From an uncultured Spirochaetota bacterium (lineage in GTDB: Bacteria > Spirochaetota > Spirochaetia > Treponematales > UBA12059): DNA of 44,140 nucleotides. A model generated the notes under the pieces. It searched no databases and was not told the DNA's origin. It was given only the letters and a program-made list of their open reading frames with translations. Shown here piece after piece: positions 3,475 through 42,220 of this stretch (positions within the stretch are counted from its first letter, which is position 1; the number at the start of each line of letters is the position of its first letter). Location: contig CALMRC010000130.1 in NCBI GenBank assembly GCA_937873275.1, forward strand, positions 1-44,140, given 5' to 3'. The position numbers and the translations under genes are program-made.

Positions 3475-3747
3475 CTCGGGAGTGTCTCGACGATACTCCG
3501 GAGTGTCTCGACGACCCTCGGGAGAGCCTCCGGGACCCTCGGGAGAGCCTCCGGGACCCTCGGGAGAGCCCCGGAGATCCTCGGGAGAGCCCCGGAGACC
3601 CTCGGGAGAGCCTCCGGGATCCTCGGGAGAGCCTCCGGGATCCTCGGGAGAGCCTCGGAGACTCTAAGGAATGTCCCGGAGACTCTCGGGAGAGCCTCCG
3701 AGATCCTCGGGAGAGCCTCGGAGACCCTCGGGAACGTCCCGGAGACG
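3475..3747. repeat. Thirteen tandem 21-bp repeats, intergenic
   Basis: Thirteen consecutive units, each exactly 21 bp, begin at 3475, 3496, 3517 and so on to 3727. The commonest unit is CTCGGGAGAGCCTCCGGGAC plus C. Units 3 and 4 are identical, as are 7 and 8; variation is concentrated in positions 9-21, and the CTCGGGAG head is conserved in ten of thirteen. The array lies between pruA and the promoter of the kinase operon. All six frames are open because 21 is a multiple of 3, giving heptad peptides such as LGRASGT, but no start and ribosome site supports translation. Twenty-one bp is two helical turns, so every unit presents the same DNA face. Confidence 0.9.
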
Positions 3748-3772
3748 CGCGGACCCCCCGAATCGGGGAAAT

Positions 3773-3801
3773 TTGACAGGCCCGGAGGGATATCCTATAG
3801 T
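3773..3801 (+). promoter_or_regulatory. Sigma70-type promoter of the kinase operon
   Basis: Perfect -35 TTGACA (3773-3778), 17-bp spacer and -10 TATAGT (3796-3801). It sits just after the 21-bp repeat array and gives a leader of about 50 nt before the GTG start at 3860. Confidence 0.8.
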
Positions 3802-3859
3802 TTCTCTAAAATATCCCCTTCAGTTGAATTCCCTTGCTCGAAGTGTAAGGAGCGTCTCG

Positions 3860-5500
3860 GTGGTACGACGCAGCCAGGGTCCGGGCACGAGCCGCTTGCT
3901 CCTCAACGCGCTCTTGGGAACAGCGTTCCTGGCGGCCGCGGGGGTCCTGGCTTTCGTGATCAGCTTCACGATGCGCCGGCAGGCGGCCGAGGAGGCCCAG
4001 GCCAAGGCCCAAATCCTCCTGGATAAGGCGCTGGCCGTGCATGCCTATTATTCCAAGGAATTGAAGCCCCGGCTCTTCGAGCTGACCGACCCGTTCCGCC
4101 CCGAAGGGTATTTCGATCCGAGCTGGATGTCCTCCTCCTATGCGGTACGGCGCCTGGACGAGTACTTCCACGGCTTCAATCCCATCGATTATTACTACAA
4201 GGACGCCGTGGTCAACGCCCGAAACCCGGGGAACGAGGCGGACGAGCCGGAGCGGGCCTTCCTGAGGGAGCTGAACGGCGATCCCGAGCTCGAATCCCGT
4301 TCGACGGTGCGGAAGGTGGGCGGGGAATCCTACTTCGTCTTCCTGCGCCGGGGAGAGATTCTGGAGGAGTCGTGCCTCCGCTGTCACGGAGACCCCTCGG
4401 ATGCGCCGGCGGACCTCCTGCGGGTTTACGGGACGAAGCGCGGTTTCCGCCGAGGCCCCGAGCTCGGTACGACGGTTTCGGTCGTCTCCATACGGATCCC
4501 CGTCACCCAGGCGTACCGCACGGCGGACCGCTTCGCGGCTTTGGTATCCGGGGTGATGCTGGCCGTCCTCGCCTCCCTGCTCGTCCTCCAGCACGAGCTT
4601 TCGGACCGGCTGTTCTTCCGGCCCCTGGCGTCGATCCGGGCGAAGGCCCTCGAGATCTCCGCGGACGATCACCACCTGGGGGAGACGATCCCCGTGCCTC
4701 GAAGCCGGGAGCTGGGCGGGATGGCGACGGCCTTCAACGCGATGTCCGCCGTCCTGCGCCGGGACCGGGACCTCATGGAGGAGCGGATCCGGACGCGCAC
4801 GTCCGAGCTCTCCGACGCCAACGGACGGCTTGAGACGGAACTGTCGGAGCGCCGGCGCGCGGAATCGGCCCTGCGGGAGGCTCTCGGGGCGAACGAGCAC
4901 CTGATGCGCGAGCTTCAACATCGGGCCAAGAACAGCTTCAACATGATCTCGGCCATGATCGACCTGGCCGCGGCGTCCTCGCCCGGCCGGGAGGCCCGGG
5001 AGGCCCTCTCCACACTCGACTCCCGGGTGCGCTCCGTCGCGGAGCTCTACTCCCTGCTGTATTCCTCCGGCAGCCCCGCCTCGATCCGGGTTGACGAGTA
5101 CTGCGTCCGCGTCGCGTCCTCCGTCGTCGCCCTGGCCGGGAACGTCACCCTGGAGACGGACCTGGATCCGGTCGTCCTTTCGGCCAAGGAGGCTGCCCCG
5201 ATCGGGTTGGTCGTCAACGAGCTGGTGACGAACGCCGTCAAGCACGCCTTCCCGGGGAACCGCCGCGGCACCATCCTCCTTTCCCTCCGCGACGCGGACG
5301 GCGGGGTCCGCCTCGAGGTCCGGGACGACGGGATCGGACTGCCCGAGGACTCCGGCAAGGCGCCGGAGGGCGGCGCCATGGGGCTCGGCCTGGTGCGGGG
5401 TCTTGCCGGCCAGCTCGGCGGAACCCTCACGATCGGCGCAGGATCGAAAGGAGCCCGATTCACCCTGGACGTTCCCGTCCGCCGGGAGGCTTCCCCGTGA
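3860..5500 (+). CDS. Membrane histidine kinase with haem-binding DUF3365-like sensor, HAMP and HisKA_2
   Basis: Sensor kinase of 546 residues. An N-terminal helix (13-37) and a second helix (about 225-245) flank a periplasmic domain resembling the Tll0287-like/DUF3365 family. It carries a single c-type haem motif, CLRCH at 172-176, so haem-based redox or gas sensing is the likely input. A HAMP linker (about 251-303) and coiled coil lead to a HisKA_2 box, ELQHRAKN, with phosphoacceptor His354. The ATPase domain has NELVTNAVKHAFP (N box), DDGIGLP (G1) and GLGLVRGL. GTG 3860 is chosen because TAAGGAG lies 7 bp before it; upstream codons run back into tandem repeats. It overlaps the next kinase by 4 bp. 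Haem attachment is inferred from the motif. Confidence 0.9.
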   Translation: MVRRSQGPGTSRLLLNALLGTAFLAAAGVLAFVISFTMRRQAAEEAQAKAQILLDKALAVHAYYSKELKPRLFELTDPFRPEGYFDPSWMSSSYAVRRLDEYFHGFNPIDYYYKDAVVNARNPGNEADEPERAFLRELNGDPELESRSTVRKVGGESYFVFLRRGEILEESCLRCHGDPSDAPADLLRVYGTKRGFRRGPELGTTVSVVSIRIPVTQAYRTADRFAALVSGVMLAVLASLLVLQHELSDRLFFRPLASIRAKALEISADDHHLGETIPVPRSRELGGMATAFNAMSAVLRRDRDLMEERIRTRTSELSDANGRLETELSERRRAESALREALGANEHLMRELQHRAKNSFNMISAMIDLAAASSPGREAREALSTLDSRVRSVAELYSLLYSSGSPASIRVDEYCVRVASSVVALAGNVTLETDLDPVVLSAKEAAPIGLVVNELVTNAVKHAFPGNRRGTILLSLRDADGGVRLEVRDDGIGLPEDSGKAPEGGAMGLGLVRGLAGQLGGTLTIGAGSKGARFTLDVPVRREASP

Positions 5501-7620
5501 GGCGCCCGTTCCTCGCGGCCGCGCTCCTGGCCGCGGCGCTGGCCATCGCCCGGGCCGCCGAGCCGGTCCGGGTCTCTCTCCAGCTTCGCTGGGACCACCA
5601 GTTCCAGTTCGCGGGGTATTACGCGGCGGACTGGATGGGCTATTACGAGGAGGAGGGGCTTTCCGTCGAAATCCGACCTTCGATCCGGAACGGCGAGATC
5701 CTTCAGGCGGTCCGGGAGGTGTCCGAGGGACGGGCCGATTTCGGCATCGGGGCGGCGGACGTCCTGGTGGGCATCGACCGGGGCGATCCCCTCGTGATCG
5801 TCTCCTCCTTCTTCCAGAAGAGCGGCGCCGCCTACTTCGCCCTGGAAAGCACCCCCCTGGAGTCCCTCGCCGATCTCGCACGACTCACCCTGGCCCGCCT
5901 TCCGAACGACCTCATCGACATCGAGTTCCAGGCAGCCTTCCGGGAGGAGGGAATCCGCATCGAGGGCCTCGCGTCCATCCCCCTCGAGGCCGGATTCGAG
6001 GACATGACCTCGGGACGGGCCGGGGCATTGCCCGGCTACGTGATCACGTTTCCCTTCGCCCTGGAACAAGCCGGTATCCGGTACCGGTACCTCACTCCGG
6101 CCCAGTTCGGGATCAACTTCTACGGCGACTCGGTCTTCACGACCTCCGCCTTCCTAGGCAAGCGGAGGGCGACGGTCGACGCCTTCGTTCGAGCCTCGAT
6201 CAAGGGCTGGGTCTACGCCCTGGAGCACCCCCGGGAGATCGCCGAGATAATCGCCCGGGACTTGCCGAACACGTCCTTCCGCGGAGATGTCGCGTCCTAC
6301 AACCGGTTCCAGGCCCGGGAGGTTCCCAAGCTCATGGAGTACCCGGTGGTGGAGCCGGGCCACGTCAATCCCGGACGCTGGCAGGCCATGTACGACCACC
6401 TCCTGCGCCTGGGGATCGTGGACCACCCCCGGAAGGCGGAATCCTTCGTGTACGTAGCCCAGACCTACAAGGCGGAGAGGCTACAACGGCTCACCCTCGC
6501 CGCCGCGGTCGCCGCGGTCGCCGCCCTGCTCTTGGGCGTCGCCTCCCTTCTTTGGGTTTTCGTCCTGCACCGGACGGTGGCCTTGAGGACGGCCGAGATC
6601 CGCCGGGCCAAGGAAAAGCTGGAGAAGGCCCAGCACTACTCCCGCATCGGGAGCTGGACCTGGGACATCAAGGCGGACCGCCTCGAATGGTCCGACGAGA
6701 TGTACAACATCTTCGGCATCGACCGATCCGGTTTCACCGGATCCCTGCCGGACGTCATCGCCCGGGCCATCCATCCGGACGACCGGGAAAAGGTCGAGGC
6801 CTCCAACGAATCGGTCGCGCGGAAGGGCGCCCCCATCCCGGTCGAGTACCGGATCATAAAGCCGGACGGCCGGATCCGCACGGTCTGGGCCGAGGCGGGG
6901 GAGCTGGTCCGGGACGAGCGGGGCCGGCCGGCGAGCCTTTCAGGCTTCGTGCAGGACATCACGGAGCGAAAGGCCGTCGAACAGGACTTGCAGAGAAGCC
7001 TGGCCGAGAAGGACGCTCTCCTGGCCGAGGTGCACCACCGGGTGAAGAACAACCTGAACGTCATCTCGAGCCTCCTCGACCTGCAGGCCCTTCGGCTCCG
7101 GACCCCCGACGAGGCCCTGGAGGCCTTCAAGGCCAGCCGGGACCGGATCAAGACCATGGCGGCCGTGCACGACGCGATCTACGCCTCCAAGGACTTCGCG
7201 TGCGTCGACCTGGCCGGCTACATCGAGTCTCTGGGTCTCCGGCTCCTGGGCTCCTTCGGGGCGGGGGATCGGGTGACCCTGGCGACCCGGGCCGACGAGA
7301 TCCTGCTGAGCGTCAACGAGTCCGTACCGCTTGCCCTGATCCTGCACGAGCTCATCACCAACGCCCTTCGGCACGCGTTCCCGGGCGAACGGCGGGGCCG
7401 GATCGACATCCGCGTGTCCCTGCTCCCGAATGCCCGCCGGGAGCTCACCGTGGCCGACGACGGGGTCGGCATCGCGGAGGAGCACCGGAACCCGCCCCGG
7501 GCCTCCCTGGGACTGACCATCGTCGACCTGCTCGTGAAACAGTTGGACGGAAGCCTCGAGATCGCCCGGGAGGAGGGCACCCGGGTCACCGTCCAGTTCC
7601 CGGGGAAGGGATGTCCGTGA
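5497..7620 (+). CDS. Hybrid sensor kinase: NMT1/THI5-like binding domain, PAS, HisKA_2, ATPase
   Basis: A 707-residue sensor whose signal peptide (about 1-21) is followed by a complete periplasmic-binding-protein-like NMT1/THI5 domain (RVSLQLRWDHQFQFAGYYAA to about residue 310). This fold normally binds thiamine-pyrimidine precursors or sulfonates in ABC systems. A membrane helix (about 331-354), a PAS domain (about 380-495, starting RIGSWTWD and ending DITERKAVE), the HisKA_2 box EVHHRVKNN with His514, and an ATPase domain with HELITNALRHAFP and DDGVGI complete it. It starts with GTG overlapping the stop of the preceding kinase and ends overlapping the receiver, so two kinases may feed one receiver. 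The ligand is unknown; a pyrimidine, amine or sulfonate is a guess from the family. Confidence 0.9.
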   Translation: MRRPFLAAALLAAALAIARAAEPVRVSLQLRWDHQFQFAGYYAADWMGYYEEEGLSVEIRPSIRNGEILQAVREVSEGRADFGIGAADVLVGIDRGDPLVIVSSFFQKSGAAYFALESTPLESLADLARLTLARLPNDLIDIEFQAAFREEGIRIEGLASIPLEAGFEDMTSGRAGALPGYVITFPFALEQAGIRYRYLTPAQFGINFYGDSVFTTSAFLGKRRATVDAFVRASIKGWVYALEHPREIAEIIARDLPNTSFRGDVASYNRFQAREVPKLMEYPVVEPGHVNPGRWQAMYDHLLRLGIVDHPRKAESFVYVAQTYKAERLQRLTLAAAVAAVAALLLGVASLLWVFVLHRTVALRTAEIRRAKEKLEKAQHYSRIGSWTWDIKADRLEWSDEMYNIFGIDRSGFTGSLPDVIARAIHPDDREKVEASNESVARKGAPIPVEYRIIKPDGRIRTVWAEAGELVRDERGRPASLSGFVQDITERKAVEQDLQRSLAEKDALLAEVHHRVKNNLNVISSLLDLQALRLRTPDEALEAFKASRDRIKTMAAVHDAIYASKDFACVDLAGYIESLGLRLLGSFGAGDRVTLATRADEILLSVNESVPLALILHELITNALRHAFPGERRGRIDIRVSLLPNARRELTVADDGVGIAEEHRNPPRASLGLTIVDLLVKQLDGSLEIAREEGTRVTVQFPGKGCP

Positions 7621-8012
7621 GCCCTCTGCGGATCCTCGTCGTGGAGGACGAGTTCATCATCGGCTATGCCCTCAAGGACCGGCTCGAGCTGTACGGTCAT
7701 CGCGTGTTGGACGTCGTGGCGAGCGCCGACGATGCGGTGGAGGCGGTCCGGACCGGGGCGCCGGACCTCGTCCTCCTGGACATCCTGCTGGACGGTCCCC
7801 GGACCGGGATCGACGCGGCCCTCGACATCCGGTCCTTCTCCGACGTGCCGATCGCCTACCTCAGCGGCAACATCCACCTGGTGAACGAGGCCGAGACCCG
7901 ATCGACGAGGCCCCTGGGGATCTATTCGAAGCCCCCCTCCGACGAGGAGCTGGTCGACCTGTGCGAGGCGGCGCAGGCCGCGCGGTCCGGATCCCTTTCG
8001 GCCGGGCCGTAG
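7611..8012 (+). CDS. Single-domain response regulator (receiver)
   Basis: Stand-alone receiver of 133 residues that should accept phosphate from the two upstream kinases. Visible signature residues are the acidic cluster VEDE (11-14), phosphoacceptor Asp57 in DLVLLDILLDG, and Lys107 in GIYSKPPS. There is no output domain, as is usual with HisKA_2 kinases in this group; it may act by protein contact or pass phosphate on. ATG 7611 follows GGGGAAGGG directly and overlaps the end of the kinase by 10 bp, so it is translationally coupled. It converges with the kinase gene at 8019 with only 6 bp between. Confidence 0.9.
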   Translation: MSVSPLRILVVEDEFIIGYALKDRLELYGHRVLDVVASADDAVEAVRTGAPDLVLLDILLDGPRTGIDAALDIRSFSDVPIAYLSGNIHLVNEAETRSTRPLGIYSKPPSDEELVDLCEAAQAARSGSLSAGP

Positions 8013-8018
8013 CGGCCG

Positions 8019-9497
8019 TCAGGGAAGGAGCAGGGTCCAGGTCACGCCGCCGCGTTCGCCGGTCGTGACGGTGAGCGTTCCCCCGATCTGGGCGGCCAGG
8101 GACTGGGCCATGCGGGTGCCGAAGCCGCCGGTGTCGAGGGTGTCCGGAACGCCGGCACCGTCGTCGGACACGGTCAGGATGTAGCCGCCTCCGGGCGCCC
8201 GGGAGGCTCCCACCCGGAGGGTCCCGGTCCGGCCTTCCGGAAAGGCGTATTTGTAGGCGTTGGTGACCAGCTCGTTCACCAGGAGGGCCAGGGGGAAGGC
8301 CGTGTCCATCGGCAGGGATATGTCCGGCTCGCAGTCCAGGACCCGAGCAATCCGCCCCTCGGGATCGTAGGTCCTTCCGATCGCCTCCAGCAGGGATCCG
8401 AGGTAGGGGCACACGTCCGCGGAGCCGTGCGGGGATCGCTGGTACAGCTGCTTGTGCAGGAGGGACATGGAGCGGACCCGGTCGGCGCAGTCCCGGAGGG
8501 TCCGGCCCGCCGAGGCGGGATCCGCCCCGGCCCGGGTCTCCCCGAGGGAAAGGATGCCGGACACGATGGCCAGGTTGTTCTTGATCCGGTGGTTCATCTC
8601 CCGGAACAAGGTGTCCTTGATCTCCAGTTCCCTCTGGAGTTCCGAGGCCTCCCGGGCCCGCCTCGCGGCCTTCCGGCCGTACAGGGCCAGGGCCAGGGCG
8701 ATGCCCGTGAAGGCCGCGCCCAGGAAGGCCTGCAGGTAGGCCCGTTCCCGCCACTCCCCCAGGATCTCGTCCCGGTTCCGCAGGACCCGGACCTTCAGGG
8801 GTTCCAGCCGGAACGCGGCCTCGGCGCTCAGCGCCGCTTTCGGCCGGGCGCCGTCCCGAGAACCGCCCCAGGTCTTGCGGTAGATCGCCTCGCCCCGGGG
8901 GTCGACCAGGGCGACCTCGGTGGTGCCCGCCGCCCGGACGAGGCCCAGCTGCTCGTCCAAGAGGCCGGAGGAAAAGAGGACGGCGAAGTGGAGCCGGCCG
9001 CCCCGCCCGTCCGGGGCCGGGCGCAGGACGACGACGACCTCGCCGCCCTCGGCGGGGGCGTCCGCGGTCTCGACGCCGCTCGATCGGGACAGGGGCCGGT
9101 CCGCCAGGGCGGGTCCCCGGAGGGTCAGGACGGGATCGTCCCTTCGGTAGGCGCTGGCGGCGACGGCTCCCCGGGCGTCCAGGAGGTAGACGTTCTCCGC
9201 CTCGGGAATACGGGCCGCCAGATCCGCCAGGGTCGAGGCGGGTTCGGCGATACGTCCGGCCTCAAGATCCCGGGCGGCCCCATCCAGGAGATGGTCCGCG
9301 GTACGGAAGACCCCTTCCAGGGTCCGTGCCAGGAGGTTCGCGTCGAAGGTCAGGTTGTCCTTCGCGGCGCTCAGGATGAGGTCCCGGTCCTCCACCAGGT
9401 CCTGGGCGGAGAAGACGATCAGGGCCAGGACGGTCCCCAGGACCACGAGGAAGCCCGGAAACTCGGACCGGCCGTCGCGGAGGGGCTTCCGGCTCAC
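8019..9497 (-). CDS. Membrane histidine kinase, Cache-like sensor and HisKA_2
   Basis: A 492-residue sensor kinase. Membrane helices at about 14-33 and 253-275 enclose an extracytoplasmic domain of about 220 residues. It begins with a long helix (AAKDNLTFDANLLARTLEGVFRTADHLLDG) and contains the ENVYLLDARGAVAAS strand pattern of dCache-type domains, followed by a second VALVDPRGEAIY half. The cytoplasmic part has a coiled coil, REMNHRIKNN with His303, NELVTNAYKYAFPEG and DDGAGVPD. Its start overlaps the stop of the upstream TRAP-type binding protein by 4 bp, so the binding protein is probably its ligand-presenting partner. Cache assignment is by pattern; kinase assignment is firm. Confidence 0.9.
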   Translation of the reverse strand: MSRKPLRDGRSEFPGFLVVLGTVLALIVFSAQDLVEDRDLILSAAKDNLTFDANLLARTLEGVFRTADHLLDGAARDLEAGRIAEPASTLADLAARIPEAENVYLLDARGAVAASAYRRDDPVLTLRGPALADRPLSRSSGVETADAPAEGGEVVVVLRPAPDGRGGRLHFAVLFSSGLLDEQLGLVRAAGTTEVALVDPRGEAIYRKTWGGSRDGARPKAALSAEAAFRLEPLKVRVLRNRDEILGEWRERAYLQAFLGAAFTGIALALALYGRKAARRAREASELQRELEIKDTLFREMNHRIKNNLAIVSGILSLGETRAGADPASAGRTLRDCADRVRSMSLLHKQLYQRSPHGSADVCPYLGSLLEAIGRTYDPEGRIARVLDCEPDISLPMDTAFPLALLVNELVTNAYKYAFPEGRTGTLRVGASRAPGGGYILTVSDDGAGVPDTLDTGGFGTRMAQSLAAQIGGTLTVTTGERGGVTWTLLLP

Positions 9498-10516
9498 GGC
9501 CCGGCTCCCCGGGTCTCCTCCCGCAGGAGCGCCAGGATTTCACCGGAAACCCCCAGGCGTCGGGCCGCATCCTCCTCGGTCCGGAGCAGGGAGTCCCGGA
9601 CCGCCGCGCGCTCGGCCTTGGAGGGAACCCGGATCCGCAGACCCCGGCCCGCCAGTCGGGCTTTGGCCGCCTCCTGGGCCCGCAGCGCCGTCTCCCGGGC
9701 GGCGGGAAGGAGGTCCTCCCAGGCGGCCTGTATCTCCCGGCGGATGTCCGGATCAAGTCCGTTCCAGAAGGCCTCGCCCGCGATGGGGACGTAGAAAGGA
9801 TAGTACTCGGCGTCCTCGTAGACCGCGGCGATCCCGGCGGAGTCCATCCCCGCGCTGTCCACGGTCTCGTAGGTGGTCAGGATGCCGTCCACCAGGCGGC
9901 GCCGCAGGTAGGAGTCCAGGTCCGGAGAGGGGATGGAGACCGGCACGGCCCCGAGGGTCCGGATCCGCTCCTCGTTCCCCCGTCCCCCGGCGACCCGTAC
10001 CCGCTTGCCCCGGAAATCGTCGATCCCCCGGAGGCGTCGGTCCAGGCTGAACAGGTGGGCATGCCCCAAATCCAACCAGCGTCCCAGGACCTTCCCGCGG
10101 GTCCCCGCTTCGATCCGGGCGTTCAAGGCCGCCCCGAGGGGACCGTCGGCCAGGCGTCGGGCCTGTTCGATGGAGAGTCCATAGGCCGAGGGAAGCATCA
10201 GGGCGGCGGTGTCCGGCACCATGCGGTCGAACTGCCAAATGCCGGGCAGGGCGATCTCGACCGCCCCCCGCGACACGGCCCCGATTACGTCGGTGTCCCG
10301 GAAGAGCCGCGCCCCGTCGTAGAACTCCACGGAGACCCGGTCCCCCAACCGGGCGGCCACGCGGTCCGCGAAGGTCCGGGCCACCTGGGCCTGGAAGTGA
10401 GTCGGGGGGTTTTCCACGGAGATCCGGATCCGGATTCGCGCTCCGGGGCCCGCCTGGGCCCCCGCGGTCGAGAGGAGGAGCAGGGACAGGGCTCCCGCGA
10501 GCAACCTTCGAACCAT
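9494..10516 (-). CDS. Orphan TRAP-type (DctP-like) periplasmic substrate-binding protein
   Basis: A 340-residue secreted binding protein with a signal peptide (about 1-21, cleavage near AGAQA). It has the DctP pattern: NPPTHFQAQVARTFADRVAARLGDRVSVEFYDGARLFRDTDVIGAVSRGAVEIA, then DFRGKRVRV and a LVDGILTTYETV segment where TRAP proteins contact carboxylate ligands. No TRAP permease (DctQ or DctM) is nearby. Instead it overlaps a histidine kinase by 4 bp, so it probably serves as a soluble sensor subunit. ATG at 10516 is chosen because GGGAGG lies 6 bp before it; an in-frame ATG 12 codons upstream lacks such a site. The classic ligand-binding Arg position could not be verified by eye. Confidence 0.85.
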   Translation of the reverse strand: MVRRLLAGALSLLLLSTAGAQAGPGARIRIRISVENPPTHFQAQVARTFADRVAARLGDRVSVEFYDGARLFRDTDVIGAVSRGAVEIALPGIWQFDRMVPDTAALMLPSAYGLSIEQARRLADGPLGAALNARIEAGTRGKVLGRWLDLGHAHLFSLDRRLRGIDDFRGKRVRVAGGRGNEERIRTLGAVPVSIPSPDLDSYLRRRLVDGILTTYETVDSAGMDSAGIAAVYEDAEYYPFYVPIAGEAFWNGLDPDIRREIQAAWEDLLPAARETALRAQEAAKARLAGRGLRIRVPSKAERAAVRDSLLRTEEDAARRLGVSGEILALLREETRGAGP

Positions 10517-10636
10517 ATACGGCCTCCCGAATCGAATGTAAAAAATGCACACGATCCGCGTCCTTCGTCAAGGGGAAAACCGGGGAACGGAATGTTCCCG
10601 GGGCGACTGTAGGTTTAACAAAATGGAGATTTTCCG

Positions 10637-10665
10637 TTGCAAAAATCGATATTCTGTCCTACTAT
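10637..10665 (+). promoter_or_regulatory. Promoter of the truncated receiver gene
   Basis: TTGCAA (10637-10642), a 17-bp spacer and TACTAT (10660-10665) lie in an AT-rich island unlike the surrounding DNA. A GCCGCC/GGCGGC hairpin follows in the leader (about 10687-10706), just before the start at 10720. Confidence 0.6.
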
Positions 10666-10719
10666 ATACGCATCAACCGATCCGGTGCCGCCGCTCCGCC
10701 GGCGGCGATCGAGGACAGC

Positions 10720-11085
10720 ATGGCCGACTCCCCGAACAAGACTACCCTGCTTCTCGTCGAGGACGAGGCGCTCATCGCGATACTGGAGGCGGAGCAGCTG
10801 GAGGCGGAGGGCTACTCGGTGATCGTCACCGGCGACGGGGAGGCGGCCATGGAGGCCGTCCGGACCGCCTCCCCGCCCGTCGACCTGGTTCTGATGGATA
10901 TTGACCTGGGTCCGGGCCGGATGGACGGAATCCGGGCCGCCCAGGCCATACTGGAGGTCCGGGACGTGCCCGTCGTCTTCCTGTCCTCCCACACGGAACG
11001 GGACATCGTGGCTCGGACCGAGGAGATCTCATCCTACGGCTACGTGGTGAAGGATCCGGGGATCGCGGTACATTCCGACAGGTAG
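10720..11085 (+). CDS. Response-regulator receiver, C-terminally truncated
   Basis: The 121-residue receiver contains LLVEDEALIAI, the Asp site in VDLVLMDIDLGPGRMDGI, PVVFLSSH and the conserved Lys in GYVVKDPG. After this the family normally continues with helix alpha-5 (about 20 residues) and often a kinase or PAS part. Here the frame changes to unrelated IAVHSDR and stops 14 bp before the end of a Y1-transposase gene on the other strand. It is therefore probably cut by insertion or rearrangement, and may not fold or dimerise normally. It is divergent from the TRAP-binding-protein/kinase pair and was presumably their partner. Confidence 0.8.
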   Translation: MADSPNKTTLLLVEDEALIAILEAEQLEAEGYSVIVTGDGEAAMEAVRTASPPVDLVLMDIDLGPGRMDGIRAAQAILEVRDVPVVFLSSHTERDIVARTEEISSYGYVVKDPGIAVHSDR

Positions 11086-11099
11086 GCTTTTCTGGTGTT

Positions 11100-11621
11100 T
11101 CAGCTCGTCAGAAGGAGTCGACTTCGTTCCGGGAAGGAGAGGAGCGTCCACGGGGGAGCATCCTCCACGAGGTCGCGGCAACCTGTACGACTATGCCATA
11201 ATCCCCCGAACATCCAAGCGCGACGATCCTCGACAAGGTTCGCCCGTACCGGGTTGTCGTCGATGTATGCGAATACCGCGAGCAGATCCCGGAATCCCGA
11301 AAGTATCCGGGAGAAGAACCTCTCTCCCCAGACATGGCCCGAATAACCGAATATCCGATTGTAGGCCATCGCGAAGACGCTCAGGATCCACTGCATGACC
11401 GCGGACAGGCTAACGCCCTTCCCCGGCACGATCACGAGATGGAAATGGTTTCCCATGATACAGAAATTCTCTATCCCGAAAGCATATTTTCTTTTTGCCC
11501 GTTTCACGACCGAAAGGAAAAGGTCCTTAATTGCTCCCGGGTCGAAGATCATCTCTTTCCGATTCGCCCGCGCCGTTACATGGTAGCGGGCGCCTTCGCG
11601 CAACTCTCTAGGCTTCCTCAT
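11100..11621 (-). mobile_element. Y1-family (REP-associated-type) transposase gene
   Basis: A 173-residue single-domain HUH transposase of the Y1/IS200-like, REP-associated group. It begins RKPRELREGARYHVTARANRKEMIF, has the HUH-type pair His59-Phe-His61 in MGNHFHL, and ends the core with YIDDNPVRANL, whose Tyr119 is the expected DNA-nicking residue. I prefer ATG 11621; the frame is open to ATG 11675, but that extension is encoded by the adjacent hairpin. Its 3' end abuts the truncated receiver. Such proteins usually occur once or a few times per genome and move small palindromic repeats rather than themselves. Confidence 0.9.
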
Positions 11622-11636
11622 GCTTCCAATACGCGC

Positions 11637-11670
11637 GACAGAGCTCGTCTTGATTGCATCGAGCTCTGTC
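11637..11670. repeat. 11-bp perfect hairpin next to the Y1 transposase
   Basis: GACAGAGCTCG (11637-11647) and its exact complement (11660-11670) flank a 12-nt loop, 16 bp upstream of the transposase start and 14 bp after the ABC ATPase gene. There is no T-run, so a REP-like recognition hairpin for the transposase is more likely than a terminator. Confidence 0.7.
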
Positions 11671-11683
11671 CCCATGAATTATT

Positions 11684-12784
11684 TTATTCCGTCTCCGGCG
11701 GCAGGACCCGGACCCGGGCCTCGTGGAAGGAGATGGACACCGCCTCCCCCTCCGCGGGGATGCGCTTGCCCGCGGGATCGTCCACCTGCACCAGGAGCTC
11801 CCCGTACTCGGTGGTCACGAAGGTCTCCACGCTGGAGCCCAGGTAGACGTTCTGCCGCACGGACCCGTCCACGACTCCCTTTCCGGGGGCGCCCAGGAGC
11901 AGGGACTCGGGTCGGGCCATGAGAACCGCGGGCTTGCCGGCGGTCACGCCCGAGGCGCGCTTGCCGGCCCGGACTTTCTTGCCGTGAAGGGTGCACACGC
12001 ACTCGGCCCCCTCGAAGCCCTCCACGGCCACGGGGAAGAAGGCCACCTTGCCCACGAAACCCGCCACGAAGACGGAATCCGGGTCCTCGTAGATCGCCGA
12101 GGGCGAGCCGATCTGCCGGATGCGGCCGTCCTTCATGACGATGACCCGGTCGGAGAGGCTCATGGCCTCGGTCCGGTCGTGGGTCACGTACACGGCGGTG
12201 ATGCCCAGGGATTTCTGGATGCGGCGGATCTCCACCCGCATCTGCTCCCGCAACAGGGCGTCCAGGTTGGACAAAGGCTCGTCCAGCAACAGGACCCCGG
12301 GCTCCACCACGAGGCTTCGGGACAGGGCCACCCGCTGCTGCTGTCCGCCGGAGAGGCGGCCGGGGGAGCGCTCGGCGTAGTCCGAAAGGCCCGTCAGGGC
12401 CAGGGCGCGGCGGACCCGCTCCTCCTGCTCGGCCTTGGGCACGTTCCGGACCCGGAGGCCGTAGGCCACGTTCTCCGCCACCGTCATGTGGGGAAAGAGT
12501 CCGTAGCTCTGGAACACCGTGGCGGTGTCCCGCTTGTTCGGGGGAAGGCTCGTCACGTCCTCGCCGCCGATCCGGATGAGGCCGGAGGTGGGCAGGTCGA
12601 AGCCCGCGATCATGCGGAGGGTCGTGGTCTTGCCGCATCCCGAGGGACCCAGGAGGGTCACGAGCTCCCCCGGGGCAACCTCGAAGGAGGCCTGGCGGAC
12701 GGCGACCACGTCGGGCCGTCCCTTCACGTTCTTGTACACCCGGGTAACGTCGTCCAGGGTCACCGCTACGGGCTGCTTGGCCAT
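11684..12784 (-). CDS. ABC transporter ATP-binding protein, Fe3+/spermidine-type
   Basis: The 366-residue ATPase of the importer encoded with the next two genes. Walker A GPSGCGKTT (46-54), Q-loop VFQSYGLFPHM, signature LSGGQQQR (144-151), Walker B VLLLDEP (164-170) and H-loop His202 are intact. A C-terminal regulatory TOBE-like region (about 240-366) follows. The family covers FbpC, PotA and PhnT-like ATPases. With the permease and binding protein here, ferric iron is the likeliest substrate, 2-aminoethylphosphonate the main alternative. It starts 18 bp after the permease stop. Confidence 0.92.
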   Translation of the reverse strand: MAKQPVAVTLDDVTRVYKNVKGRPDVVAVRQASFEVAPGELVTLLGPSGCGKTTTLRMIAGFDLPTSGLIRIGGEDVTSLPPNKRDTATVFQSYGLFPHMTVAENVAYGLRVRNVPKAEQEERVRRALALTGLSDYAERSPGRLSGGQQQRVALSRSLVVEPGVLLLDEPLSNLDALLREQMRVEIRRIQKSLGITAVYVTHDRTEAMSLSDRVIVMKDGRIRQIGSPSAIYEDPDSVFVAGFVGKVAFFPVAVEGFEGAECVCTLHGKKVRAGKRASGVTAGKPAVLMARPESLLLGAPGKGVVDGSVRQNVYLGSSVETFVTTEYGELLVQVDDPAGKRIPAEGEAVSISFHEARVRVLPPETE

Positions 12785-12802
12785 GTCGTATCCTTTCCTC
12801 CC

Positions 12803-15001
12803 CTACCGGGTGATGGTCTTTTCGAGGGCTCCGGTGTCCCGCACCAGGAGCCGCATGAGTCCGAAGGCGCCCATGACCAGGATGATGAGCACCGTGGCCA
12901 GCACGCTGGCAAGCCCGAACCGGAGGTTCTCCGAGAAGTTGTAGATCAGCACCGTCATGTGGTACCAGCGGGCGGAGATCAGGAAGATCACCGCGCTGAC
13001 CGCGGTCATGGACCGCACGAAGGTGTAGGACATGCTGGTGATGAAGGCCGGGCGCACCAGGGGCAGGACGATGGTCCGGAAGACGGTGCCCTCGTCGGCG
13101 CCGAGGTCCTTGGCCGCCTCCTCGATCGAGGGGTCGATCTGGCGCAGGGAGGCCACCCCGGACTCGATTCCGACCGGAAGCTCCCGGATCACGTAGTTGA
13201 TCACGATGATGGCCCCGGTGCCGACCAGGATCAGGGGAGCCTTGTTGAAGGCCAGGATGTAGGCGATGCCCAGGAGGGTCCCCGGCACGGCGAAGGGGGT
13301 CATCATCAGGGCTTCCAGGACCCGCTTGCCCGCGAAGGACTTGCGCACGAAGACCAGGGCCGCCGCCATGGCCAGGATGCCCGCCACGGGGGTGGCCGCA
13401 GCGGCCAGGGTCACGGTGGACCGGATGGCGTCCCGGCCCCGGGTCAGGGCCTCCGAGATGTTGGACAGGGTGAAGGAGTAGTCGATGCCCCAGTTCTTCA
13501 CGAAGCAGCCCGCCACGATGGTCCCGTACAGTCCCAGGATCGCGGCGACGCAGATCCACACCCCGGCCGCCAGCGCCCGGCGCACCCGGGGGGAGGTGAT
13601 CTCCACGAGCTTGGCGTTGGGCTTGCCCGTCACGGTCACGAAGGATCGCTTGGCCACCCAGTTCCTCTGGAGGAAGAAGGCCGTCAGGGTGGGAAGGAGC
13701 AACAAGAGGGACAGAGCTGCGCCTCCGCCCAGGTCGTTCCGGCCGGTCACCTGGATGTAGGCCTCCACCGAGAGGACCCGGTAGTTTCCCGCCAACAAAA
13801 GGGGGTTCGCGAAGTCCGCCAGGGAGTTCGTGAAGACCAATAGCCAGGCGGACAGGATGCCCGGGACCGCCAGGGGAAGGGTGACGGTCCGGAAGGCCCG
13901 CCACCGTCCCGCGTTCAGGTCCAGGGCCGCTTCCTCGAGCGTGGAGTCCATGGCCTGCAGGACCCCCGCTAGGGTCAGGTAGGCGATGGGGAACATCCCG
14001 ACGGTCTGGACGATCACGAGCCCCGGAAGGCCGTAGATGGAGAAGTTCGAAAGGCCCAAAAGCTGCCGGGTGATGAGGCCGTTGTTCCCGGCCAGTAGGA
14101 TCACCGAGAGGGTCAGGGAGAAGGGCGGGGAGATCACCGGGAGCTGGGCGATCGTGGACAGGAACTTCTTTCCCCCCATCCCGGTCCGGTGGATCGCGAA
14201 GGCGAAGACGAAGCCGATGACCGTGGATACCGAGGCTGTCCAGATTCCCAGGCGGACCGAGCCCCAGAGTGCCTGGAGGTGGGCACCCGAGAGGACCCCC
14301 CTCCAGATCTCCAGGGAGAACCTCCCCTCCTTCAGGAAGGACAAGCGGAGGGCCTCCGCCAGGGGATAGGCGATGAAGATCCCGGCGATGCCGGCCAGGA
14401 CCAGGACCGCGTAGCCCACCGTGGGGTCCCGGGTGAACCGGGAGATCCCGGTGAGGGCCGCGAAGAGGACGAAGGCCCCGACGGCGAAGAGGGCGAAGAG
14501 CCGCTCCAAGGTACGGTCCCCGCCCTCGGGGGCCAGGAAGACCGCGATCCCCAGGAGCTCGGACTGGCTTTCGTCCAGGACCGGGGCGTAGAAGAGGCGG
14601 ACCCGGCCGCCGCCGTAGTTCAGCCGGACCGTGGAGGCGTAGTTCTCGAAGTAGTACGCCGACTCCAGTCCCTTGGCGGCGTCCTCGTCTCCGGACACGG
14701 ATTCCCAGAGGGAGGCCGCCTCCGGGTCGGCGGTCCGGACGTCGTAGACCTCCGGATCCTCCGTGGGCACGAGGTAGACCGCCGCCCCGCCGGGAAGGCT
14801 CTCCGGCACGGAGGCCAGCCAGGGATCCAGGTTCTCCGGGTCCGAGGGGGCGCTCCGGGCCAGGAGGGTCAGGCGACTCTCGGAGTCCCGGGCTTCGGTG
14901 GTCCGGAGGGTCCCCCGAAGGGTCAGGAAGATCCAGCCGTCCACGGCCGCGAACACGGCCAGGGCCGCGAGATATCTATAGAGGGTCGAAGGTTTGGGCA
15001 T
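12803..15001 (-). CDS. Fe3+-type ABC permease (FbpB/AfuB-like) with extra N-terminal extracytoplasmic domain
   Basis: A fused-duplicate permease of 732 residues with two transport halves. Each half has its own EAA loop: TLEEAALDLNAGRWRAFRTVTLPL in the first and SIEEAAKDLGADEGTVFRTIVLPL in the second. Twelve or so membrane helices are expected. Typical FbpB permeases are about 500-560 residues. Here a helix at about 8-28, a soluble segment of about 135 residues (SESRLTLLARSAPSDPENLDPWL to VRLFYAPVLDESQSELLGIAVFL) and another helix precede the first half. That layout resembles a single-Cache or chemoreceptor-like extracytoplasmic module. It could sense the substrate or dock the binding protein. 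Confidence 0.9.
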   Translation of the reverse strand: MPKPSTLYRYLAALAVFAAVDGWIFLTLRGTLRTTEARDSESRLTLLARSAPSDPENLDPWLASVPESLPGGAAVYLVPTEDPEVYDVRTADPEAASLWESVSGDEDAAKGLESAYYFENYASTVRLNYGGGRVRLFYAPVLDESQSELLGIAVFLAPEGGDRTLERLFALFAVGAFVLFAALTGISRFTRDPTVGYAVLVLAGIAGIFIAYPLAEALRLSFLKEGRFSLEIWRGVLSGAHLQALWGSVRLGIWTASVSTVIGFVFAFAIHRTGMGGKKFLSTIAQLPVISPPFSLTLSVILLAGNNGLITRQLLGLSNFSIYGLPGLVIVQTVGMFPIAYLTLAGVLQAMDSTLEEAALDLNAGRWRAFRTVTLPLAVPGILSAWLLVFTNSLADFANPLLLAGNYRVLSVEAYIQVTGRNDLGGGAALSLLLLLPTLTAFFLQRNWVAKRSFVTVTGKPNAKLVEITSPRVRRALAAGVWICVAAILGLYGTIVAGCFVKNWGIDYSFTLSNISEALTRGRDAIRSTVTLAAAATPVAGILAMAAALVFVRKSFAGKRVLEALMMTPFAVPGTLLGIAYILAFNKAPLILVGTGAIIVINYVIRELPVGIESGVASLRQIDPSIEEAAKDLGADEGTVFRTIVLPLVRPAFITSMSYTFVRSMTAVSAVIFLISARWYHMTVLIYNFSENLRFGLASVLATVLIILVMGAFGLMRLLVRDTGALEKTITR

Positions 15002-37891: not shown

Positions 37892-39811
37892 ATGGCGTAC
37901 AAGCTCGCGGACCTGATCGACATCGAGCAATTCCAGCACCTCCAGGACCGGCTCAACGCCATATACTCCTTCCCGTCGGCCATCATCGACAACGACGGCG
38001 TCATCCTGACCGCCACGGCCTGGCAGGACGCCTGCACGAAATTCCACCGCAGGAACCCGGAATGCGAACAGGAATGCCTCAAGAGCGACCGGTACATCCT
38101 GGATCACCTCCACGAAGCCAATCCGGCGGTCAGCTATCGCTGCCCCCACGGGCTCGTCGACAACGCCACCCCCATCATCATCGAGGGAATCCACTACGGC
38201 AACTTCTTCACCGGCCAGTTCTTCCTCGAGCCGCCGGACCTGGGATTCTTCGCCCGGCAGGCCCGCCGATACGGCTTTGACGAGGAGGCCTACCTGGACG
38301 CCATCCGGAAGGTTCCGATCTGGACCCAGGACCAACTCGAGCATTACCTCTACTTCATCAAGGGACTCATCGAGATCATCACCGAGTCGGGCCTCAAGAA
38401 GCTGCGCGAAATCGAGGCGCGGAAGAAGATCGAAGCCAGCGAGGCCCGGGCCGATGCCGTCATCCAGAAGATGCTCGACGGATTCTGGATGGTGGCGGCG
38501 GATTCCGGACGCATCCTGGATGTGAACGACTCCATATGCGCGATGCTCGGATACACCCGGGAGGAACTGCTCGCCCTCTCGGTCCCGGACATCGACGCCT
38601 TCGACGATACGGATGCGGTCGCCCGCCGGATGGAGAAGATCGCGCGCGAAGGGTCGGCCCTCTTCGAGTCGCGCTTCCGGAGGAAGGACGGCTCGTTGAT
38701 CGACGTGGACATCAGCGTCACCTATATCCGGGACAAGAACCTGTTCTTCGGATTCCACCACGACAACACGGCCCGCAAGGCCGCCGAGACGTCTTTGCGA
38801 GAGAGCGAGGACCGGTACCGCACCCTGTTCGACCAAAGCCCCGACGGAATCGTGATCCTCGACCCCGCCACCGCCCGCCCCCTGGAGTTCAACGAGCAAG
38901 TCTGCCGTCAGCTCGGCTACGGCCGCGATGAATTCGCCCGCCTGTCCTTGGCCGATATCGAGGTCATCGAATCGCTGGAAGACAGCCTCACGCACATCAA
39001 AAAAATCATGGAGACGGGACATGACGAGTTCGAAACGAGGCAGCGGACGAAGCAGGGCGAGATCCGGGACGTGCTGGTGATCGCTCAGGTCATCCGATCC
39101 GGCGAAACCTTGATCTTTCACTGCATCTGGCGGGACATCACCGAGCGCAAGCGGACGGACGACCAGCTCAAGAGGTCCCTCGCCGAGAAGGACACCCTTC
39201 TCCGGGAGCTGTACCACAGGACGAAGAACAACATGAACGTGATCGGGGCCATGCTGGACCTGCAGGCGGCCTACTCCGGGGTTCCCGCGGTGGAGGCGAT
39301 GGCGAGGGACACGGAACGCCGCATCCGCGCCATGTCCCTGGTGCATCAGATGCTCTATCAGTCCAAGGACCTGTCGCACGTGAGCCTCAAGCAATACATA
39401 AACGAACTACTCGCGCTTCTGCTTCAAGGTTTCTCCGCCGACATGCGTAGAATCAATCTGGAACTGGAGGTGGAGGACATCGAGGCGGTCATCGATACCG
39501 CCATCCCCTGCGGGCTGATCCTGAACGAACTCGTGTCCAACAGCTTCAAGCACGCCTTTCCGGGAGGCCGCCCGGGTTCCGTGCGCATCCGCCTTTCCCG
39601 GGCGGATCCCCGTACCCTGGAGCTCGTCTTCTCCGACGACGGGGTGGGCGTGGCGACGGATTTCGACTATCGCAGGCAGAACTCCCTGGGGTTCCAGACG
39701 ATCCTGAGCCTGGCCGAGCATCAGCTCCAAGGTCACGCGGCCTTCGAGAACAAGAACGGCGTTACCTGGCGGATTCGCTTCAGCGATCAGCTGTACTTGG
39801 CGCGGGTGTGA
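37892..39811 (+). CDS. PocR-PAS-PAS-HisKA_2 sensor histidine kinase
   Basis: A 639-residue soluble (no membrane helix) kinase. The N-terminal PocR domain (about 5-165) begins LADLIDIEQFQHLQDRLNAIYSFPSAIIDNDGVILT. It holds the conserved Cys48, Cys58, Cys62, Cys84-x-His86 pattern (CTKFHRRNPECEQECLKSD, YRCPHGLVD); PocR domains are known or predicted to sense small hydrocarbon-derived ligands such as 1,2-propanediol. Two PAS domains (about 192-300 and 310-427) lead to ELYHRTKNN with phosphoacceptor His442 and an ATPase domain with NELVSNSFKHAFPGG and DDGVGVATDF. The Cys set suggests metal or redox involvement. It is followed 4 bp later by its receiver. Confidence 0.92.
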   Translation: MAYKLADLIDIEQFQHLQDRLNAIYSFPSAIIDNDGVILTATAWQDACTKFHRRNPECEQECLKSDRYILDHLHEANPAVSYRCPHGLVDNATPIIIEGIHYGNFFTGQFFLEPPDLGFFARQARRYGFDEEAYLDAIRKVPIWTQDQLEHYLYFIKGLIEIITESGLKKLREIEARKKIEASEARADAVIQKMLDGFWMVAADSGRILDVNDSICAMLGYTREELLALSVPDIDAFDDTDAVARRMEKIAREGSALFESRFRRKDGSLIDVDISVTYIRDKNLFFGFHHDNTARKAAETSLRESEDRYRTLFDQSPDGIVILDPATARPLEFNEQVCRQLGYGRDEFARLSLADIEVIESLEDSLTHIKKIMETGHDEFETRQRTKQGEIRDVLVIAQVIRSGETLIFHCIWRDITERKRTDDQLKRSLAEKDTLLRELYHRTKNNMNVIGAMLDLQAAYSGVPAVEAMARDTERRIRAMSLVHQMLYQSKDLSHVSLKQYINELLALLLQGFSADMRRINLELEVEDIEAVIDTAIPCGLILNELVSNSFKHAFPGGRPGSVRIRLSRADPRTLELVFSDDGVGVATDFDYRRQNSLGFQTILSLAEHQLQGHAAFENKNGVTWRIRFSDQLYLARV

Positions 39812-39815
39812 TATC

Positions 39816-40184
39816 GTGGGCAGACCCCGTTCCCTGATCCTGGTGGAGGACGAGGCGTTCATCGCCTTGAACCTGAAGCTCGGCCTGGAGCGGGCCGGGT
39901 ACGTAGTGAAAGCCATCCTGGCGACCGGCGAGAAGGCCGTCGAGCGGATGGACCTGGAGCCGACGGACGTCGTCGTCATGGACATCCGACTGGCCGGCAC
40001 GATGACGGGCATCGAGGCCGCGACACGGATCCGGGAACGTCACGCCGTGCCGATCATCTTCATGACCGGCTTCACCCGGGAGGAGTACGGCCGGGAGGTC
40101 GACGAGCTCATGCCGAGCATGCTGCTGAACAAGCCGGTCACGTCGGAGGCCCTCGCGGAGGCCCTGGAGGAGATCTGCGGCTGA
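39816..40184 (+). CDS. Single-domain response regulator
   Basis: A 122-residue receiver with LVEDEAFIAL (acidic Glu11-Asp12), phospho-Asp56 in DVVVMDIRLAGTMTG, IIFMTGFT and Lys106 in LLNKPVTS: all residues required for phosphotransfer. GTG is the start, 4 bp after the kinase stop. No output domain. It is probably the direct acceptor from the PocR kinase, and can be compared residue by residue with the altered receivers of the next gene. Confidence 0.92.
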   Translation: MGRPRSLILVEDEAFIALNLKLGLERAGYVVKAILATGEKAVERMDLEPTDVVVMDIRLAGTMTGIEAATRIRERHAVPIIFMTGFTREEYGREVDELMPSMLLNKPVTSEALAEALEEICG

Positions 40185-40279
40185 AGACCGGGAGAACCCC
40201 GGTCCGATCCGAAAGGATTGAGTTACCCGCCCGGACTCCGCGACCAAGGATCGAAAACCATGAAGAATAGAGGTCCCGC

Positions 40280-42220
40280 ATGAGTCCATCCTTGCCGTCG
40301 TCGATGCGGATCCTGGTCGCCGAGCCCGAAACAATCGTGGCCGAGGACCTCCGCCGGCGCCTGGAGCGTTTCGGTTACACCGTGGCCGGAACGGTGCGCA
40401 GCGCCGGGGAACTCGGCCGCTTCCCGGCGGACTTCGACGTGCTGCTGAGCGAGGCCGTCCTCGAGGGCGGGGCCGACGGGATCGCGCCGGCCGTCCGGCT
40501 CGCCGCGGAGAGGAATGCCCCCCTCGTATTCCTCAGCAAGGATCCGGACGAGGAAACGGTCCGCCGGATGATCGAGGCCCGGCCCGAGGCGTTCATCCTG
40601 AAGCCCCTCAAGGAACGGGAGCTTATCACGACCCTGGGCCTGGCGGCGTGGTCCCGGCGTCCGGATCCCTTCGATCTTCCCTGCGGCCTCGAGCCCGGCG
40701 GGGAGGGCATCCTCATCATCGAGGACGAGAAGATCGTCGCCCTGGACGAACGGCGCCGCCTGGAACGGGCGGGATTCAAGGTGGTCGGGATGGCCCCAAG
40801 CGCCGAGGAGGGCATCGACTTGGCCCGGGAGCTGAGGCCGGCCCTCGTCACGACTTGCATAAATCTGGAAGGCCCCATGGACGGGATCGAAGGAGCCGCG
40901 GCGATCCGGGACATGTTAGACATCCCGATCGTTTTCCTCACGGCCTTTGCGGACGAGATAACCTTGGAGCGCGTCCGGGAGACGAGACCCGAAGCCTACA
41001 TCCTGAAGCCGTGTAAAGAAAAGGAACTTTTCCTTGCAATCCGCCTGGCGCTCGCCAAGTACGAAGCCAAGGTCCGTCCGCCCGACCCGGCGGGGATCTT
41101 CGCCGCGGCGCGCCGGGGGACTCCCGCGGATCTCCAGGCCGCCTTGGCGGGGCTCTCGTCCCCGGACGTCCGGGACCCCGGGGGCCGCACGCCCCTGATG
41201 TACGCCGCGGCGCGCTCCCGGGACCCGGAGACGGTCCGGACTCTCCTCCGGGCGGGCGCGGACCCGGACGTCGCGGACAGCCATGGGCGGACCGCCCTCT
41301 TCTACGCGGTGGCCGGAGAAACTCCCGGAATCCTCGAGGCCCTCCTCGCCCTGGACGCGGACCGGACCCGCCGGGACTCCGACGGATTCTCGGCCCTGGA
41401 CTATGAGCTGTTGGGACGGAGGAGGACCGCCTCCGTGGCTGCATTCCTGGCGGCGGGAGAGGACCCGAACCAAATCGGCCCGGACGGCCGGAGTCTCCCG
41501 GACAGGCTCCTGGAACCGAAACGGAGAGGGGACTCGGACGCGATGGGATCCCTGCGACTCCTCCTGGATGCGGGTATGGCGGTCGACCGGACCCGCTTCG
41601 GGGAAATCCGGGCCCGGGGCATCTGGCTTTTCACGGAAGCCGCGCCCGGTCGGCTCCCTTCCCTTCTCTCCCTGGGGGTGGAGATCGACCGCCGGGGCGA
41701 AGAGGGCCGCACCGCCCTGCACTGGTCCGCCGTCCACGGCTCCCCGGACGCCCTGGCAGCGCTCCTGGCATCGGGAGCCGATCCCGAAGTCCGGGACCAG
41801 GACGGCTCGACGCCCCTCATGCTCTGCGCCGAGCGGTACGGCGACGCCGGCAGGGAGCTCCAGGTCCTTCTGGAAGGGGGCAGTCTCCTGGAATCCCGGG
41901 ACGGGAAGGGCCGCACCGCCCTGATTCGGGCCTGTATCCATGGGCGTGATGAACATTGCGCGTTCCTCCTGGAGCGCGGCGCGGATCCGAACGCGCGGGA
42001 TGAAGACGGCAGGACAGCCCTGCATATTGCGGCAGGGTTCGGTTCGCCATCCGCGATAGAGACTCTTCTGGACGCCGGCGCGGATCCGAAGATCCGGGAC
42101 GCCCAGGGGGAAAAACCATACAACCTCGCCAAGGACTATGGATTTCTGGCCGACAATCCGGTCCTGGCGCGCCTCCGGGCGGCCGCGGAGGAAGCGGATG
42201 AGGAAAACGCCCCGCAATAG
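40280..42220 (+). CDS. Double pseudo-receiver fused to ankyrin repeats
   Basis: A 646-residue cytoplasmic protein. Receiver 1 (about 9-120) has AEPE in place of the usual E-D pair and Glu58 at the phospho-Asp position (FDVLLSEAVLEGG); Lys108 is kept. Receiver 2 (about 142-257) keeps the acidic pair Glu148-Asp149, Thr221 and Lys243, but has Cys193 instead of phospho-Asp (ALVTTCINLEGPMDG). Residues about 270-630 form eight or nine ankyrin repeats of the GRTPLMYAA...TLLRAGADPDVRD type, several degenerate in the middle. The fold is preserved while the chemistry is lost, so it probably binds the neighbouring kinase or receiver and recruits partners through the ankyrins. It lies 95 bp after the receiver gene. 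I know no described family of this kind. Confidence 0.88.
   Translation: MSPSLPSSMRILVAEPETIVAEDLRRRLERFGYTVAGTVRSAGELGRFPADFDVLLSEAVLEGGADGIAPAVRLAAERNAPLVFLSKDPDEETVRRMIEARPEAFILKPLKERELITTLGLAAWSRRPDPFDLPCGLEPGGEGILIIEDEKIVALDERRRLERAGFKVVGMAPSAEEGIDLARELRPALVTTCINLEGPMDGIEGAAAIRDMLDIPIVFLTAFADEITLERVRETRPEAYILKPCKEKELFLAIRLALAKYEAKVRPPDPAGIFAAARRGTPADLQAALAGLSSPDVRDPGGRTPLMYAAARSRDPETVRTLLRAGADPDVADSHGRTALFYAVAGETPGILEALLALDADRTRRDSDGFSALDYELLGRRRTASVAAFLAAGEDPNQIGPDGRSLPDRLLEPKRRGDSDAMGSLRLLLDAGMAVDRTRFGEIRARGIWLFTEAAPGRLPSLLSLGVEIDRRGEEGRTALHWSAVHGSPDALAALLASGADPEVRDQDGSTPLMLCAERYGDAGRELQVLLEGGSLLESRDGKGRTALIRACIHGRDEHCAFLLERGADPNARDEDGRTALHIAAGFGSPSAIETLLDAGADPKIRDAQGEKPYNLAKDYGFLADNPVLARLRAAAEEADEENAPQ

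Follow-up and report, generated by a model that had tools for sequence, protein, structure and literature searches.

In the 44,140-nucleotide stretch of DNA from an uncultured Spirochaetota bacterium that we analysed (the window), a dctP gene and the histidine kinase gene that overlaps it very probably make up a two-gene sensory module, in which the solute-binding protein (SBP) DctP binds a ligand, docks on the double Cache (dCache) domain of the kinase and thereby sets kinase activity. In the pathway envisioned, DctP would be exported and would then bind a small ligand, probably a carboxylate, in its two-lobed cleft; either its loaded or its empty form would dock on the periplasmic double Cache of the kinase; and docking would change the state of TM2 and, through it, autophosphorylation by the HisKA_2/HATPase part. 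The physical complex of DctP and kinase, the class of ligand, the direction of the response and the downstream receiver are the elements of this scheme that we infer.

The dctP gene and its overlapping kinase gene

The features that make up the pair are as follows.

9494..10516, minus strand: dctP-type secreted solute-binding protein (PF03480, AF2 model, tree placement)
9494..9497, minus strand: GTGA in which the dctP stop and the kinase start overlap (sequence)
8019..9497, minus strand: membrane histidine kinase with TM1, double Cache (~39-251), TM2, HisKA_2 and HATPase_c (Pfam and AF2)

The full open reading frame of dctP spans 9494-10552 on the minus strand, but the likely start is the ATG at 10516, which is preceded by GGGAGG and gives a product of 340 aa. 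The N-terminus, judged by eye, is a cleavable signal peptide, MVRRLLAGALSLLLLSTAGAQA, that ends in AQA. PF03480 matched the protein with 111 bits against a Pfam cut-off of 23.4, and this was the sole family over its cut-off in the binding protein, the sugar-type Peripla_BP family of LuxP not being found there. The AF2 model (pLDDT 90.6) has TRAP SBPs as its top PDB matches and shares their fold, with a Foldseek E of 1.7e-21 and TM scores of 0.79 (query) and 0.87 (target) against 8t9t. R174 is invariant in all rows of our alignment and is aligned with the Arg of the PDB TRAP SBPs, a position that we take to be that of the canonical arginine holding the ligand carboxylate; the ligand of the window DctP is probably of that class.

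The GTG start of the kinase gene sits inside the dctP stop, and this 4-bp overlap is likely to couple the translation of the two genes. In the kinase, HisKA_2 (PF07568) scored 60 bits against a cut-off of 22.3 and HATPase_c (PF02518) 40 bits against 26.4, placing it with the HisKA_2/HWE kinases, and the AF2 model of residues 1-290 (pLDDT 84) shows TM1, a double Cache and TM2 in that order. By Foldseek and VIA-align, the best solved matches of this sensor half are dCache domains of histidine kinases and chemoreceptors (rpHK1S-Z16, KinD, PctA/PctB and DctB), with a best VIA-align Z of 15.8 over 205 residues. The preliminary description of this DNA, which had reported a DctP-type secreted protein overlapping a Cache-like kinase by 4 bp, is thus confirmed, and the window has the arrangement expected of a LuxPQ-like sensor kinase, an SBP gene beside a dCache kinase gene without a permease.

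Search for a TRAP permease of the window DctP

In a TRAP transporter (DctPQM), dctQ and dctM are encoded with dctP, which is not the case here. The genes scanned by Pfam from 3.7 to 15 kb of the window encode kinases, receivers, a transposase and an ABC importer, and neither DctQ or DctM nor a DctA permease, as in the DctB-DctS-DctA system, was among them, which agrees with the earlier observation that no TRAP permease lies nearby. The search was extended to the draft genome (3.6 Mb, 97% complete), where seven DctP proteins are encoded and the six others adjoin DctQ/DctM. All 10 DctM domains adjoin other binding proteins, either these 6 DctPs or 3 TAXI proteins, the latter being adjacent to the last three DctM domains. 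Since all DctM and DctQ of the genome are accounted for by other SBPs, no free TRAP permease was found in the draft for the window DctP, and a dctQM pair elsewhere that depends on it, which would have spoken against the sensory role, did not turn up.

One could still argue that DctP feeds a TRAP permease encoded elsewhere, and that the co-transcribed kinase regulates this transporter and senses the ligand through its own dCache. Transporter SBPs are often encoded beside their regulators, dCache domains often bind small molecules directly (as in KinD, DctB and others among the structural matches), and a permease could be missing from a draft genome. However, the assignment of all the DctM domains to other binding proteins makes this reading unlikely, as do the comparisons across genomes described below.

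Conservation of the DctP-sensor pair

Of 99 relatives, only 3 have a close homologue of the window DctP (49-55% identity). Each time it is followed by the gene of a homologous kinase, the two overlapping by ATGA or GTGA, although the flanking genes differ. These relatives, together with a species-genome scan and with profile searches that covered 393 Spirochaetota genomes and 385 genomes from the class of one alphaproteobacterial member, yielded a set of 21 loci; the profile searches used an alignment in which one locus (L052) was in the wrong frame, so that weak members may be missed. In 20 of the 21, the gene directly downstream of dctP encodes a membrane protein whose N-terminal half is a periplasmic sensor. 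The resulting 20 pairs, 15 from Spirochaetota and 5 from Alphaproteobacteria, cover at least two phyla, the species-genome scan having used narrow peptide patterns. The 4-bp overlap is found in 14 of the pairs, that of the window included, and in the remainder the two genes are separated by 1 to 44 bp or share a longer overlap. Such recurrence of the linkage is far above chance.

None of the 20 pairs, in either phylum, had a dctQM next to it within the sequence read, which also weakens the case for an uptake function. The preliminary description had called for a search for conserved DctP-kinase pairs without dctQM and named loss of linkage in relatives as a result that would go against it: such pairs exist, and the linkage is kept. 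Its central proposal, that the binding protein was recruited as the ligand-presenting subunit of a sensor, is supported by this linkage and by the lack of a free permease, and the window DctP presumably plays that part.

Other searches gave different results. In the class of a Bordetella-named contig only permease-linked DctP relatives were found, and in the order of another genome (G440) no second case of the pair appeared at the threshold used. Three long apparent DctP fusions (L014, L027 and L032, frames of 548-691 aa) were discarded as frame artefacts; they are ordinary DctP genes beside a receiver-AraC type regulator. At one alphaproteobacterial locus (L059:5866-6345) the DctP is only 159 aa long and its ATGA overlap with the kinase gene is kept, pointing to a deletion or an assembly fault.

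A permease-free clade with its own residues

A maximum-likelihood tree was built from 44 DctPs, leaving out the 159-aa protein of L059. All 20 signalling-type DctPs fell into one clade (95/93), and all 15 close relatives linked to DctQM formed its sister clade (96/85); neither clade contained a protein of the other kind. The same division is seen at two positions, N36 and Q42 occurring in 17 of 17 signalling DctPs and T36 and R42 in 12 of 12 permease-linked ones. That the signalling proteins form a clade of their own and are set apart at positions 36 and 42 from those permease-linked relatives with which they were compared is a further argument against continued service to a TRAP transporter.

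The 21st locus (L080 in genome G291, ~6838-7959, the same gene as L071) encodes a DctP of the signalling clade without a partner gene. This protein has lost N36 and H40, and its terminal branch is 0.89, vs 0.18 in the sister that kept its GGDEF partner; its rapid change fits a lost constraint, as far as a single case can indicate. The gene lies near chromate-transporter-like genes, as it does in the sister genome.

These observations bear on the view that DctP is a passive relic with no function alongside the kinase, the overlap being due to compaction of the genome or to an arrangement inherited from a common ancestor. Nothing positive speaks for this view, apart from the fact that linkage is indirect evidence, and we regard it as very improbable: the pair has been kept while the paired DctPs diverged to 32-54% identity with the window DctP, in two phyla, in unrelated gene neighbourhoods and with three types of output, and the DctP that lost its partner is the one that changed faster.

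Partner sensors and their outputs

The partners carry HisKA_2 in the window and in 12 other Spirochaetota loci, by Pfam or direct sequence reading. In two further loci (L072:5531-7057 and L074:4892-6412, both minus strand) the partner is instead a diguanylate cyclase of the membrane, with a sensor half of the Cache type and a GGDEF domain that scores 139-140 bits. The alphaproteobacterial partners are of the HisKA type, some with PAS domains (that of L083 being read only up to its PAS). The AF2 model of a double Cache is that of the window kinase, the other partners being judged by Pfam or alignment; dCache_1 gave sub-threshold Pfam matches in some of them, and the sensor halves align among partners.

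In the clade of seven that contains the window, DctP sequences are on average 50% identical, whereas the transmitters reach 41% and the dCache halves 24%. A conserved DctP beside a fast-changing Cache suggests, from this comparison of sequences, that ligand specificity sits in DctP. DctP and sensor distances are correlated (r = 0.74), a value confounded by species history. Most likely the output of the sensor, be it a kinase or a cyclic-di-GMP enzyme, was swapped during evolution behind a conserved DctP-sensor pair. We further think it reasonably probable that a single recruitment of a TRAP SBP gave rise to a portable, transporter-free DctP-dCache cassette, present in Spirochaetota and Alphaproteobacteria with at least three outputs (HisKA_2, HisKA and GGDEF), and that residues 36 and 42 mark the switch from transport to signalling.

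Neighbouring genes and candidate receivers

The surroundings of the pair contain the following features.

5497..7620, plus strand: kinase with NMT1/THI5, PAS_3, HisKA_2 and HATPase in one chain (PF09084, 110 bits)
7614..8012, plus strand: stand-alone receiver overlapping the NMT1 kinase gene (PF00072, 46 bits)
10517..10719, no strand: divergent intergenic region between dctP and the probable receiver remnant (sequence)
10720..11085, plus strand: receiver domain of 121 residues (PF00072)
11100..11675, minus strand: Y1/IS200-type transposase gene, possibly REP-associated, abutting the probable receiver remnant (PF01797, 47 bits)

The homologues of the receiver at 10720-11085 are mostly parts of long REC-PAS-HisKA_2-like frames, in the same and in related genomes; nearly all of the matches end at or before residue 117, and the homology to one hybrid kinase runs beyond the stop codon to 11103. 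Because the homologues are long frames and homology passes the stop, this receiver is probably what is left of the N-terminus of a truncated REC-PAS-HisKA_2 hybrid kinase, a gene that has most likely decayed. The divergent receiver of the preliminary description is therefore a genuine PF00072 domain but probably a remnant and not a proven partner of the kinase, and its role as cognate regulator was dropped as unproven. The span first assigned to the system, 9494-11085, takes in DctP and this receiver and leaves the kinase (8019-9497) outside. Another candidate phospho-acceptor is the intact stand-alone receiver at 7614-8012, and the kinase next to it, with an NMT1/THI5 domain in the same chain, is as originally described.

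Some other genes nearby may be mentioned. A kinase with a Tll0287-like domain (HisKA_2 type, with CxxCH in its sequence) lies at 3671-5500, and kinases with such a domain, of the HisKA type, are directly downstream of the pair in two alphaproteobacterial loci (L056:9544-11139 and L059:8774-10471), a recurrence that may reflect chance or a shared redox input. ABC importer genes (an ATPase with TOBE_2 and a permease with two BPD_transp_1 stretches) occupy 11684-15001 beside the transposase gene. Additional kinase- and receiver-like stretches that resemble the hybrid kinase family by tblastn are found at 38438-41389.

Comparison with known systems

Binding proteins that act as activators of kinases or cyclases form a recognised class, and only about ten have been shown to activate sensor kinases according to a 2022 survey (PMC9602780). 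By analogy, LuxP-LuxQ and TorT-TorS would be the closest to the DctP-kinase pair in working principle. LuxP-LuxQ of Vibrio joins a periplasmic binding protein without a transporter to a histidine kinase (PMC5467912). The likeness lies in a transporter-free SBP working with a histidine kinase, but LuxP is of the sugar-binding (ribose-binding-like) family and not a DctP, LuxQ is a hybrid kinase, and the ligand is AI-2. The periplasmic domain of LuxQ is of the double PDC/dCache type; its absence among the 50 VIA-align matches listed for our kinase sensor half carries no weight. In E. coli, TorT is listed as the input of TorS (PMC8534201). It resembles the window DctP in being a dedicated periplasmic SBP presented to the sensor domain of a kinase. 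The sensor of TorS is all-helical, however, and TorT comes from another SBP family.

In B. subtilis, DctB is a DctP-family protein without dctQM, in a unit that is tripartite with the permease DctA and whose kinase, DctS, is of the DcuS/CitA type; the organism shows a PF03480 match. DctB acts there as a C4-dicarboxylate co-receptor together with DctS and DctA (PMC6978683). It is a precedent for an orphan DctP-type protein that signals through a kinase, whereas the window pair has no DctA neighbour and combines a double Cache with HisKA_2. In Bordetella pertussis, BctC, a carboxylate-binding SBP of a tripartite transporter (TTT family), interacts with the sensor kinase BctE (PMC5812351). BctC, a TctC-family protein, differs in that it also serves the BctBA permease and is encoded in a separate operon from the kinase. 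NspS-MbaA of Vibrio cholerae, where an SBP of another family regulates a c-di-GMP enzyme with a GGDEF-EAL output in response to a polyamine ligand, is comparable to the DctP-GGDEF pairs of L072 and L074.

The BctC-BctE precedent (PMC5812351) and the draft state of the genome could be taken to mean that the window DctP has a dual role, supplying both an unlinked permease and the kinase. This is rather improbable, given that no free permease was found in the genome and that no permease accompanies the DctPs of this clade at any of the loci read, across two phyla. The three alternatives considered here are less likely than a sensory module because the DctM domains are accounted for, the clade is free of permeases and has residues of its own, and the linkage extends over two phyla.

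Conclusions

The principle is already known, since DctP- and TctC-type proteins act on kinases in DctB-DctS and BctC-BctE. New elements are a clade of DctPs without permeases, the partnership of these proteins with Cache-type sensors across two phyla, and the exchange of outputs. No description of a DctP-dCache cassette, with either a kinase or a cyclase, was found in the open literature searched, a body of work without the main review of SBP signalling. SBPs that feed receptors are believed to be widespread, yet few have been characterised. The DctP clade provides a clean natural system for their study: its permease-free members can be compared with a permease-linked sister group, two residues tell the groups apart, and related input pairs are joined to kinases at some loci and to a diguanylate cyclase at others. 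In this clade, the conversion of a transport receptor into a sensor subunit becomes directly testable.
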